Assembly (NCBI GenBank): GCA_013416795.1
Contig: RQSC01000020.1
Span: forward strand, 205,074 to 231,658
Source of the DNA: Prasinococcaceae sp. CCMP 1430
Taxonomy: Eukaryota; Prasinodermophyta; Palmophyllophyceae; Prasinococcales; Prasinococcaceae
Length of the DNA: 26,585 nt
Direction of reading: 5' to 3'
Shown: positions 13,080-19,096 of the stretch, piece by piece
Layout of the letters: every line of letters starts with the position of its first letter
How positions within the stretch are numbered: the first letter of the stretch is position 1
Position numbers and translations under genes: made by a program
Notes under the pieces: model-generated
What the model saw: the letters and a program-made list of their open reading frames with translations, nothing else
Told to the model about the DNA's origin: nothing
The model's database searches: none

Positions 13080-15635
13080 TCAAGAGCTCCTGCGCGCCTT
13101 CTTCGCCTTGGCTTTCTTGCCCGGCATCTGCGACGCCGAGGGCGCGCGCAAGCGCAGCAGGCCCCCGCCGGCGCCGCGTCGCACGGCGGCTGCGCCGCCC
13201 GCGCTGGCCAGCACCGGTGGCGACGGCGCCCCTCCGCCCTTGTCTCCTGCTGCAGGCACGTCGGCCGTCGCGCCACCGGCCGCCACGGAGTCGCGCGGCG
13301 CAGCGTCGGGCAGCGGGACCCCGAGCGCGCGGAACTGCTGGATCTCGTAGTCGTTCAGGTCGCCAGAGGGGCGGCTGCCACGGCCGGCGACGGACGGCGC
13401 CGACCGCTTCGATGACGATACGCGCACGTCGCCGAAGACGCTGCCCCTGCTGCCGGCGTTGCCGTTCTTGGGCGAGAGGAACGAGAGCTTGCGCTGTCCC
13501 GCCTGGCGCGGCGCCTCCTGTTGCCAGGGCGTCCACACCCGCACTCGTTCGCCGCTCTCGGGGTTTATCGCGCCCCGAGCAATGTCGCGCCACCTTCCCG
13601 CGTCGTCGGCGGCATCCCCGCGCGCGATGCGCCGGTCGTCGTCCGCGACCGATATGCCGAGCGCCATGCGCCACTGTATGCCGTTGGCGCCCCCGCCACT
13701 CCCGCCAGACGGCTGGCTCTGCGCCTGCGCCTGCGGCTCGGGCCCTGTTCTGCGCTCCATGCGCGCGACCGACGCGAGGAAGCCCATCGGAGATGCCTCG
13801 GCGCTGGCGCCTCCACCGCCGCACTCCCCGCCGACGTCCCCTCCTCGGTGGCGCTGCTGCACGTGCGCGCGCTCCTGCTCGATTTTAGTCACGAGCTCCC
13901 GATCGAGGTCGGTCAGCGGCGCCACCCTCTCCTCGTGCGCCTTCCACACGTGCATGTGTGAAAACGCAGCGAAAGAGACGCGACACCGCTGCGCGAAGCC
14001 CGGCGGCAGCGCATGCTTCTTGCGCGCGGCCTCGGCGACCACCACCGCAAGCGCGCGGTCGAAGGATCGGTACTTCGCGAGCAGCGCGTGGGCCCTCTTG
14101 AGGCCCCACCCTGGTGCCGAATCCACGAAATCGCACCCCGACAGCACGCACATGCCGCGGAACATCTCCTCGGTCCATCCGAAGAAGGAGACCTCGGAGC
14201 CCTTGCCGCCACTGCCACCCCCGCGGCTGCCGGGCCTGCTCGGGTTGCCGGCGCGGCTGCCGGGCCTGCTCGGGTTGCCGGCGCGGCTGCCGGGCCTGCT
14301 CGTTGGCGCTGAGCCCCCACCAGTGCTGGGCAGCGACTGCGAGCTATACTGCGACGCTTGGCGCACCTGGGATCCTCCAGCCTGCTGCTCTTGCAGTTGC
14401 TGCTGCTGCTGCTGTTCCTGTTCCACTTCGTGTGCGCGCTGCTGCTGGGCCCGCTGCTGCATGCCGAGCAAGTGCTGGTTGCACGCGCGGAGCGTCGGGC
14501 GCTCGCCCCCCCGCGGATCGTCCCCATCGCGCGGCGCGGTGGCCCGGTGCAGCCGCTCGAGCTCATCGCACACTTGTTGGCCGTCCGCCAGCGCGCGAGC
14601 GCGCGCCTCGAGCACAATGGGCGACTCGGGCACGGCGGGGGGAGCTTGACCCGCCCGCGGCGCGCCCGCCCCGGCCGCCGCAGCCGCCGGCTCGGGCGGG
14701 GGCGTGCCGGCACCACCAGCGCCACCGCCGCCGCTGCCACCGCAGTTTGCTCGCGCTGCCCCCACCATGGCATTCGTGGCGCGTCCGTCGGCGACGTGCC
14801 ACGCCGGTGCCGCGGCGAGCACGTTGCGCACGTCCACTGCGAGCGCGTTGCCTGACTCGTCGAACTTGAAGAGCACGTCGCACGGCGCGCCGTACACCAG
14901 CAGGTCCGAGTCCTCCGTGATGATGGCATGCACGCCATCGGCGTGGCCTGCCGCGCCGCGCCGCGCGAGGTGCGCCAGCTGGGCGTCGGCCTCGTACGGC
15001 GCGACGACGAAGTCCACCGGCGCGCCGTCGCACAGGCCGGGCCCCTTGCCGCAGAGCTTCCCCCGGCGCAGGCACGCGATGAGCTCGTCGGTCATTTGGC
15101 GCCGACCGCGCACGGCGCGCTGCGCGAATTCCTCGGCGCGGCGCCGATCGCCGCGCGCGAGCGCCTCCTCGCACTCGCGCTCCGCCCTGCGCTTGGCCTC
15201 CTGGCGCTTCTCGCACGTGCCCTCCTTGAGCGCGTGCGCTCGTCCGTCGAACACGAACACCGGCTCGACTGCGCGCGCGCGTCAGCGCGTCAGCGAGTCA
15301 GCGCGGCGCCTGCGCGATCGCAGAGGTTGCGGCCCGCGCCTGGCGCCCGCGCTCGCGCCCGCGCCTGGCGCCCGCGCCTGGCGCCGCGCACCTCCGAAGT
15401 ACCTGAGCAGCGCCACGCGCTTCATGCAGTACGTGATGTATGGCGGCGGCCGCGCCCCGCGCTGCTCGTGCCAGAAGCGCATGCCCTTGCCCTCGAAGAG
15501 CTCGAGCGCGCACGAGTACGCGGCCTTGTACAGCCAGCAGGACGCGTCGATCGCCACGCGCCGCCCGCTGTACTCGCGCGCGTGCGCCCGCCGCGTGTCG
15601 GCCGACAGCAGCGGCAGCAGCCCCGAGATGCCCAT
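13080..15635 (-). CDS. EXO1: Exonuclease 1-like FEN/XPG-family nuclease, two exons
   Basis: Exons 15635-15392 and 15268-13080 give 810 aa. The 123-nt intron (GTGCGC...GCGCAG) joins RYFG to VEPVFVFDG. EXO1 is a 5'-3' exonuclease and flap endonuclease in mismatch repair and end resection. The start MGISGLLPLL keeps the invariant N-terminus. Metal ligands are visible: D30 (AIDASCWLY), D89 (VFDG), E174 and D176 (PYEADAQL), D201 and D203 (ITEDSDLL), D461 (SGCDF). The last is followed by the H3TH region (GWGLKRAHALLAKY). D203 and D461 are about 258 residues apart, against about 52 in human EXO1. The extra roughly 205 residues (about 236-441) are Gly/Ala/Pro-rich, with a Gln run and three RPGSRAGNPS-type repeats. 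The C-terminal tail is disordered and ends in a basic stretch (KKAKAKKARRSS) that could be a nuclear signal. Confidence 0.9.
14221..14302. repeat. 30-bp tandem repeat (2.7 copies) in EXO1
   Basis: Units at 14221-14250 and 14251-14280 differ at one position, and a partial third unit runs to 14302. The repeat is in frame and encodes SRPGSRAGNP on the minus strand, within the insert that separates the EXO1 catalytic motifs. A CAG-type run coding for Gln lies close by at 14396-14416. Confidence 0.9.
15269..15391 (-). other. EXO1 intron with internal repeats
   Basis: A 123-nt intron, donor GTGCGC and acceptor GCGCAG. It contains repeated GCGCCTGGCGCCCGC words at 15338-15383 and alternating GC at 15271-15280. 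The splice is supported by exact restoration of the EXO1 FGVEPVFVFDG segment. Confidence 0.75.
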
Positions 15636-16440
15636 GCTCTCGCTCTTGGCGCGCCCTTGGGGAGGCCCCGCCGGCCCGCGCGGCCCGCCGAGCGCCCGCC
15701 ATCGGCCCGCGGGGGTGGGGCGCCCCGCCCCGCCCCCCGGGGCCAGCGGCCCTGCGCGCGCGCGCGCTCTGTGGCGCTGCACCGCGCACCGAACGCACCC
15801 TTTTTCGAACTCGAACTGCGCAGCGCACACACGCATTCGTAGCGACTTCAGTACATACACGAGGAGAGAAGAAGTGTTAACCCTACATATTTACCCTAAA
15901 CACTGAACCCTAATGCGAGAGCGGGCTGTTGGCGCTGTGCGCAGGCACTGTGTGCCGCTGCTGCGCTGCCGGGTGGGGGGGTGAGGGGGGTGGGGGGGTG
16001 GGGGTGGGGGATGGGTGGAGTCACACCGCGCGCGCTCTGCGGGCGCGCGTCGCCCCTCGCTCCACTTCGTTCCACTTTTCCCTCTTCCCGACTCCCTCGC
16101 GCAGGTGCTCTCCCCCGGCAGCCCTCCTCGAAGCGGTCCTCGGCTCCTCCTCTGCTGGGACGGGGGGAGGGAGGGGGACAGGGGTGCCTGCGAGGCGCGA
16201 GGGCCGAGCGCCGCCGCGCGGCGCGGGAGCGCCGGGGGACGGCCTGCCGGCCGCGCCTTACGACAGGGGAGGGNGCCTGCTCGAGCGCAGAGACGCGCGC
16301 GCGCGCGCGCGTGTGCACGCATCTGCGGGCCATCGCTCTCTCTTTCGTGCGTGCGCATGCGAGCGCGTGCTTACGCACGCTCGCACGCCGCCACGCGCGC
16401 CCCCGCCCACCCTGTGCGCGCCCGCCCGCCCGCCGCGCAG
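15636..16440. promoter_or_regulatory. EXO1 / methyltransferase divergent region with G-run cluster and one N
   Basis: This region holds the EXO1 promoter and, presumably, the missing 5' exon(s) of the methyltransferase. Positions 15878-15917 carry three degenerate CCCTAA units. Positions 15971-16015 are a dense series of G runs on the plus strand, able to form a G-quadruplex. Position 16274 is an undetermined base. Positions 16293-16312 are alternating GC. I could not identify an exon matching the N-terminus of PrmA here. Confidence 0.5.
15971..16015 (+). repeat. G-run cluster, potential G-quadruplex
   Basis: Seven runs of three to seven G are separated by T, TGA or AT over 45 bp between the divergent EXO1 and methyltransferase genes. 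The motif satisfies the usual four-tract G-quadruplex pattern several times over. Whether it forms a structure or affects transcription is inference. Confidence 0.7.
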
Positions 16441-17045
16441 GCCGCGTGGTCATCAGCATCGACGAGGGCGACGCGTGGGGCACGAGCGAGCACCCGACGA
16501 CGCGGCTGGTCCTGCGCTACCTTGTGGATAATCTGTCGGGCGGCGAGAGCGTGCTGGATTTCGGCTGCGGCACGGGCGTGCTCGCCGTCGCGGCGGCGGC
16601 GCTCGGCGCGGACGTCGCCACCGGCGTGGACATCGTGTATGAGGCGGTCGTGGCGGCCAACGAGAACGCCGCCGCCAACGCGCTGCCGCCCGAGCGCGTG
16701 ATCGCGTGCTCCAACTCCGACCTTCCCTACCTGTCGGTCGTCAGGCCGGCCAAGTACGACGTCACCCTGTCCAACATGCTCTTCAACGAGCAGCGCAACC
16801 TGCTGGCGGAGCTCGCGGCGCTCACGCGCGAGGGGGGGCGCCTCTGCGTGAGCGGCCTCATCGAAGAGGACCTCGCGACCTGCGTCAGCGAGTACGGCGA
16901 GTTCTTCGACTTCGAACTCGACGAGCGCGGCGTGGCCGTGCACACGCGCGAGGAGGGCGCGCCCTGGGTGGCGCTGGTGGGCGTGCGCAACGCGCGCGAG
17001 GTCTCGGAGTGCGTGGAGGACCTCAGCGAGGCCGCCGTCAGCTAG
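16441..17045 (+). CDS. prmA: PrmA-like (ribosomal protein L11) methyltransferase, 3' exon
   Basis: The last exon encodes 200 aa after a CGCGCAG acceptor at 16440. It carries most of the SAM-dependent methyltransferase fold: EGDAWGTSEHPTTRLVLRYL (the PrmA AFGTGxHxTT element, here WGTSEHPTT), motif I VLDFGCGTGVLAVAAAALGA, an acidic end of strand 2 (TGVDI), SNMLFNEQRNLLAEL in place of PrmA ANILxxPLxxL, and EGGRLCVSGLIEED. PrmA trimethylates ribosomal protein L11. Eukaryotic homologues act on plastid or mitochondrial L11 or, in animals, on ETF-beta; the target here is not known. The N-terminal substrate-recognition part must lie in upstream exon(s), which I cannot place; an N at 16274 lies in that region. 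The stop is only 16 bases before the SEC10 exon. Confidence 0.75.
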
Positions 17046-17061
17046 CTAGGGCTCGGGGGCG

Positions 17062-19096
17062 GTGCAGGTGCGCAGCGCGCTGCGGTCGCTGGAGGCGTAT
17101 GTCGAGGCGCTGGAGAACCGCGTGGCCGCGCGCTTCGACGAGGCGCGCGAGCAGAACGATGTCGAGTCGATGCGCGTGGCTGCCGTCGCGGCGGCCGACT
17201 TCGGTGCGTGCGAGCGCCTCGCGCGCCGGTACGTCGCGAGCTGCCCCATGTTCATCGACGCCGCCGTGTTGGAGCAGGACATGAAGAGCGCCCGCGCAGG
17301 GCCAGGTGCGCAGGGTCTGCGGCCGACCTTCCGCGACATCATGGACACAGCCACCAAGGACGCGGTCACTATCGAGGCGGTGTTCCCCGACGCGGCGAGC
17401 GCGAAGGAGGCCTACCTCACGCGCGTGCTCGAGCAGCGGGTGGGCGGCTTGCTTGAGGTCCTGCTGCTCGACGCCCACGATGGCGCGCTGCCGATAGCGG
17501 CGGACGGAGCGACGTCAGGCAAGTTCGGCCGGATGTCAACGTTCGCGGCGCAGGTGAGCGATGCAGACAAGGTGCTGGCGGGAGGGGGCAGTGGCTCGGC
17601 GTACATCCGCACGCTGGCTTCGGCGCATGAGATGACGCTGGAGCTCGCCAAGCAGCTGGCCGAGTCTGGGGCCGCAGGCTCGCTCGATGCCGTCGGCCTT
17701 GCGGCGTCGCTCTTTCACGAACGCAGGGGAGGGTACGTGGACGACGAGATCTCGTCGCTGCTGCGGTTGAGTGCGGATGCACAGGCGGTCAGGGAGGACT
17801 CGGAGAGCGTCGGGCCTGCTGGCAATAGGGACCTCGTCGCGCGCGCCAAGCAGACCGTCGCGTGGCATCGCGATGCCTGCGCGCGCTGCGAGTCTGTATT
17901 GCGCTCGGAAGTTTCCGCCACGCGCGCCTCGGCGGGAATGCGCCTGCTCGAACTCTTCCTCGAACAGACGTGCGGCATCGCCACGCAGGTCGCCGGCGCT
18001 GCGGCCGAGCACGGCCGGGCGCAGTGCGAAGCCCTGGACAGGGCCGACAGGAGCGGCAGCTTTACGTGCGTTTGCGCGCCCTGCTGCTCACGCGGCGCGT
18101 TGGCTTAGACGCGGGCGCGCGCGTCCAGTGCGAGCGCCGGCGCGCCTTGCGCTGACCGATGCGCGCCCTTCTCTCTCCAACCATGCGCGGAAAACCTGGC
18201 GCTATCACCACAACGCGCGCAGTTCCAACGTCGCCGGTGCCAATGACTTCCCCCCTGGTGACCTGCGCGGCCTCGGGGCGCTGCTGAGTGTTGTAGAGGG
18301 CGCACAGGCGGTCGCCTCTGAGAGCGCGGCGCACGTTTCGACGGCATTACTGCCGCTCATACCGCAGCGCAGCGGAGAGGCCGGCGATGCCGAGAGCATG
18401 CTTGCGAGGGCGTCAAGCCAGCTGCAGACTGCATGCCTCGCGGTGCTGCAGCAGGCTACGTGCCTCGCGTGCGCCCACGCACGCGCTCTGCTCAAAAGCC
18501 TCCAAGAGCCGACGGACTTCTGCCCCGAAGGCGATGACGTGCTCGAGGCCAAGCCCACCGAGGCGTGCGAGTGCGTGGTGGCGGCTCTGCGAGAGGTCGC
18601 GGCCCTCGCCGCGGGTTCTCTCCGGGAGGACGGGGAGCGCAAGCAGCAGCGTTCGCAAGCGCAGCACCAGCACCAGCTGTCGCCGCTACAGCACTCGCAG
18701 CACGGACACGACGGCGACGCGCCCACCACAAACTTTGGCCGCTTCATGGCGGCCGTGGGAACGGGCATCGCTGCGGCGCTCGAGGAGCACATCTTTGGCG
18801 GGTCGCGTGGATCATTCTCGGCGCTGGGCGCCGTGCGTCTGCGTCGCGACCTCAACGAGTACGCGTGCGCCGCGCGTGACACCCACGCCCACGCTTTCGC
18901 CGCTACTGCGGACTCGCTCGGCGAGCGCGCCACTCTGCTGGTGGTATCGCCAGGCTCGGTGGCCGCACTTCTCAGGGGCGAACTTCGCGGGGTGGTCACG
19001 CCGGTCGAGGCGCAGAAGGTGCTCAAGCTGCGCGAGGACGCGCGCTCTACCAGCATGGCCGCTGCGCTACGTGAGATCGCGATGCTCGAGAGGTGA
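17062..19096 (+). CDS. SEC10: Exocyst subunit SEC10/EXOC5, 5' exons missing
   Basis: Exons 17062-18065 and 18223-19096 encode 625 residues; the 157-nt intron (GTGCGT...GCGCAG) joins GSFT to SNVAGAND in frame. The exocyst tethers secretory vesicles to the plasma membrane. The first exon opens directly after a GGTGCAG acceptor with no ATG, and its first residues (SLEAYVEALENRVAARFDEA) correspond to roughly residue 180 of the ~700-aa family. The C-terminal region is the most diagnostic: FMAAVGTGIAAALEEHIFG, RLRRDLNEYACAARD, LLVVSPGSVAALLRGEL and VLKLREDARS. A His/Gln-rich insert lies at about 18647-18710. The N-terminal coiled coil that binds SEC15 in other species is absent. The 16-base gap to the methyltransferase stop leaves no room for it. 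TGTAA begins 11 nt after the stop. Confidence 0.82.

Follow-up and report, generated by a model that had tools for sequence, protein, structure and literature searches.

The window analysed here, a stretch of 26,585 nucleotides (C62:205074-231658; GC content 71%) from a 24.5 Mb assembly in 145 contigs, raises the question of why a gene for SEC10 should begin in the middle of its protein, directly behind the stop codon of a methyltransferase gene. The answer favored by the present analysis is that SEC10 is one ordinary, probably intact gene that was cut by a chimeric draft assembly, and that no new biology is involved. This artefact is considered very probable because other conserved genes have been cut in the same manner in the same assembly.

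The mid-protein start reported in the first-pass annotation is borne out by the profile matches. The window copy enters the helical bundle family Sec10_HB (PF07393) at profile position 25, directly after the stop codon of the PrmA-like methyltransferase, and residues 8-237 of its frame correspond to profile positions 25-241 (E 1.6e-18). The first exon in the window (17050..18065, plus strand; starting GSGAVQVRSALRSLEAYVEALENRV...) ends at a GTGCGT donor at 18066, and is followed by a 157-nt intron (18066..18222, plus strand) with a CTGAC branch-like motif and a GCGCAG acceptor. The last exon (18223..19096, plus strand) matches Sec10_HB positions ~411-634 (E 1.4e-22) and terminates in a TGA stop ending at 19096. 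After splicing, this C-terminal part of SEC10 comprises 629 residues and scores 145.2 bits with Sec10_HB (cut-off 26); a PDB search with the same part returned no match. At its left end, the open frame reaches back to 17050, 4 bases past the methyltransferase stop (with an in-frame TAG at 17047-17049), and the residues from 17050 read GSGAVQ, which is plausibly a linker. Because the frame remains open to this point, SEC10 needs no acceptor here. The acceptor previously placed at 17061 is absent, since 'cg' stands at 17060-17061; the AG, within GGTGCAG, lies six bases off, at 17066-17067, and an exon from such an acceptor would start at 17068, which is 22 bases past the stop rather than 16. The earliest in-frame ATG of the window copy occurs only at about 17170, within the first bundle helix.

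To the left of the SEC10 frame lies the last exon of the PrmA-like methyltransferase (16440..17045, plus strand; acceptor at 16439/16440), which matches PF06325 positions 126-280 (E 2.2e-34) and ends, as had been annotated, with a TAG at 17043-17045. This exon carries the C-terminal methyltransferase domain of PrmA, and its 92.1 bits, scored on the last exon alone, fall under the NCBIfam PrmA equivalog cut-off of 183.15. The 5' part of the gene, already described as missing, was not found. A possible duplicate of the methyltransferase piece was sought and discarded, as positions 16275-17300 occur only once in the genome. The single N noted at 16274 (16274..16274) is real and is located 776 bases left of the SEC10 frame start. 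Further to the left, an XPG N-terminal domain frame (EXO1-like; 15285..15890, minus strand) was recognized by its domain match. Between the EXO1-like and methyltransferase genes, positions 15876-15912 are AT-richer and contain AACCCTA, ACCCTAA, and AACCCTAA motifs, and these AACCCTA-type motifs resemble the plant telo-box promoter motif. A run of 1261 Ns, which may be a gap, lies directly left of the window (C62:203813-205073).

If the adjacent exons are taken at face value, the methyltransferase exon could be spliced from 17000/17001 to 17068, yielding a methyltransferase-SEC10 fusion protein. The donor proposed for this event (GAG/GTCTCGG) is indeed present at 17000/17001, and a GT...AG pair that would join in phase 0 exists, but the resulting 67-nt candidate intron (17001..17067, plus strand; GTCTCG...GCAG) is unsupported as an intron when set against the splice signals of the genome. 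These signals were read from a small sample of four introns with clear coding flanks (CCT2 on C66, HSP60 on C144, PrmA on C76, and SEC10), in which the donor is GTACGT three times and GTGCGT once, and in which a CTGAC branch-like motif and an AG acceptor are present in all four cases. The candidate intron is shorter than each of these four, and contains neither a CTGAC motif nor a pyrimidine tract. Its GTCTCG donor, the lack of CTGAC, and its purine-rich 3' end therefore make a methyltransferase-SEC10 chimera unlikely, as judged from the sequence of these four introns. The product would moreover lack the Sec10_N domain, which would be left unused on another contig (C98), and the fusion protein put forward in the first-pass annotation appears barely credible.

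The part of SEC10 that is missing from the window is present elsewhere in the genome, so that the suggested loss of the N-terminal third is not supported. A genome search for the N-terminal coiled coil (Sec10_N, PF20667) identified one match above the cut-off, at C98:124480-124677 on the minus strand (E 4.2e-7), and none on C62, so that in the assembly the N-terminal domain does not belong to the same gene as the bundle but lies on a different contig; the next-best matches in the genome, at E 0.06 or worse, do not reach the cut-off. The C98 domain scores 33-34 bits against a cut-off of 27.4 (E 1e-7 on the C98 frame) and sits in a 450-residue open frame on the minus strand (L017:4729-6078, L017 being a piece of C98). 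Homology to SEC10 on C98 ends with ...AVRLLSVAQMVAEQ + GGGGGGSDGGSG, and the window copy begins with GSGAVQVRSALRSLEAYVEALENRV; with the linkers included, the C98 homology reaches ...LPPLFTDDSRAAEAAQRAVRLLSVAQMVAEQ, beyond which a Gly/Ser linker leads into unrelated sequence, and the window opens with (GSGAVQ)VRSALRSLEAYVEALENRV. When the two halves are joined, Sec10_N precedes Sec10_HB, as is normal, and Sec10_HB scores 152.7 bits instead of 145.2, indicating that the tail of the C98 piece provides part of the beginning of the bundle. Both halves are single copy in the genome, non-overlapping, and complementary, as is characteristic of a cleaved gene.

The same data bear on the possibility that SEC10 was duplicated and the copies decayed to complementary halves, or that the C98 half is part of another tethering protein, both of which are extremely unlikely. 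The C98 frame does have a weak match to COG4_N (E 0.052), but Sec10_N matches this frame far better, and C52 carries a complete COG4 gene that has a COG4_N domain of its own. (The one Sec10_HB match outside C62, on C52, was evaluated as a second SEC10 and rejected, since it belongs to this COG4 gene, which carries its own three COG4 domains.) For decayed duplicates, a loss that is complementary, non-overlapping, and stop-free would have to be a coincidence, and the searches revealed neither a helical bundle downstream on C98 nor a full-length SEC10 elsewhere in the genome, which would have reduced the window copy to a fragment.

It is also very unlikely that SEC10 is truly split between two chromosomes by a translocation within the linker, with the transcripts trans-spliced or two polypeptides cooperating. 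Such a split would be consistent with two halves that are open, unique, and stop-free, with a break in a flexible linker, where splitting would be tolerable, and with the presence of another exocyst subunit, Sec15, in the genome, from which a working Sec10 is to be expected. However, the first start codon available to the C-terminal half is the ATG inside the first bundle helix, and the C98 half is not followed by a good donor of the GTACGT or GTGCGT type (a type defined by four introns only); the nearest candidate, GTGCGC, would not join in phase with the acceptor in the window. The window acceptor, in turn, has no CTGAC branch-like motif, and false joins are demonstrable in this assembly.

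The control families used to assess the assembly were Cpn60/TCP-1 (CCT) and RAD51. The eukaryotic CCT ring has eight subunits, of which six types were recognized in the assembly (assigned by eye, save eta); CCT4 and CCT5 were not found in the assembly, and, given a ring of eight, their true absence is implausible. The CCT7 gene on C112, for which the best PDB matches (phmmer) are all T-complex eta, ends at a single N after profile position 175, and its remainder is nowhere in the assembly. C66 carries a complete CCT2 gene, parts of which recur on other contigs: 824 bp of the gene and its neighbor on C2 (99.9% identity), and 203 bp on C76 (100% identity). Each of these pieces directly abuts a single N at one end, and its other end continues into unrelated DNA with no intervening N; as candidates for CCT7 they were rejected, being CCT2. 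RAD51 is represented by two complete, equally scoring copies (C71:195930-196655 and C89:423387-424112) and by a third (C98:110828-111349) that breaks off at a single N; the 300 bases preceding this N on its left are 100% identical to the C71 and C89 copies. Two more single-N flanks, on C136, have 100% identical copies elsewhere (C82 and C109), flush with the N. On the same contig, nuclear DNA with a GC of about 0.7 gives way, without a gap, to algal plastid DNA with a GC of about 0.3 at about 218 kb (L055 about 2047), and past an N run the contig holds a second, different plastid genome (region about 200-477 kb). The rbcL gene of the first plastid is of the green type and that of the second is more streptophyte-like, a combination that points to contamination or to a chimeric scaffold. 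The green-type rbcL, together with the high GC content of the window, marks the organism as a green alga. Other conserved genes or sequences are thus broken by the same assembly (CCT7, the CCT2 fragments, RAD51, and C136), and the CCT2, RAD51, and C136 controls therefore demonstrate false joins both with and without an N. Some scaffolders write a single N at unresolved overlaps; a search of the literature found no paper stating this. The misjoin that the first-pass annotation listed among its options consequently gains support from the complementary N-terminal piece on another contig as well as from the CCT7, RAD51, and CCT2 faults at single Ns.

From these controls in the same assembly, we infer a misjoin at the exact point in the window. 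The front of SEC10, from the Sec10_N coiled coil to the Gly-rich linker, would have been placed on C98, and the back, containing the helical bundle, on C62, where it would have been joined to the tail end of a methyltransferase gene unrelated to it. The probable false join on C62, between the methyltransferase end and the SEC10 linker, would lie at about 17046-17067, as indicated by the Sec10 matches and the assembly controls, and that on C98 would lie within the GGC-rich linker or immediately behind it, at about L017:4800-4910; the real gene would then read from the C98 piece into the C62 piece. The linker on C98 consists of a GGC repeat with further matches on C78 and C73, and the break points on C98 and C62 have no common exact match of at least 15 bases. 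The window shares its layout (the single N at 16274, then 771 bases belonging to the methyltransferase, and an N-free SEC10 junction at 17046-17067) with the pasted CCT2 pieces, in which an N is followed by a fragment 203 to about 824 bp long and by a direct join, although the methyltransferase piece, unlike those pieces, is not duplicated anywhere in the assembly. The window would thus appear to fit the pattern of a pasted fragment. The absence of an N at the junction itself, the nearest being the one at 16274, argues against a misjoin. As C98:119500-129400 likewise contains no N, both joins would be gapless chimeras.

SEC10 itself is ordinary, and the biological importance of the locus is probably nil. 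The locus does serve as a warning that losses, fusions, and odd neighbors near single Ns in this assembly are untrustworthy, and that some of its false joins are not accompanied by any N.

Compared with known systems, the methyltransferase shares its C-terminal domain with PrmA-like ribosomal protein L11 methyltransferases (PF06325), and the 5' part is absent here. Exocyst SEC10 (EXOC5) combines Sec10_N (PF20667) and Sec10_HB (PF07393), both of which are present here in the normal order when the pieces are joined, but, unlike in the usual SEC10, the domains are distributed over two contigs, C98 and C62. In draft assemblies, it is a common error for one gene to be cleaved onto several contigs (PMC4256071), and the cleaved genes described by Denton et al. 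(2014, PMC4256071) likewise consist of two non-overlapping single-copy fragments on different contigs. In contrast to those genes, the SEC10 fragments end inside long contigs, fused to unrelated DNA, and not at contig ends, so that a chimeric join is needed here in addition to cleavage.
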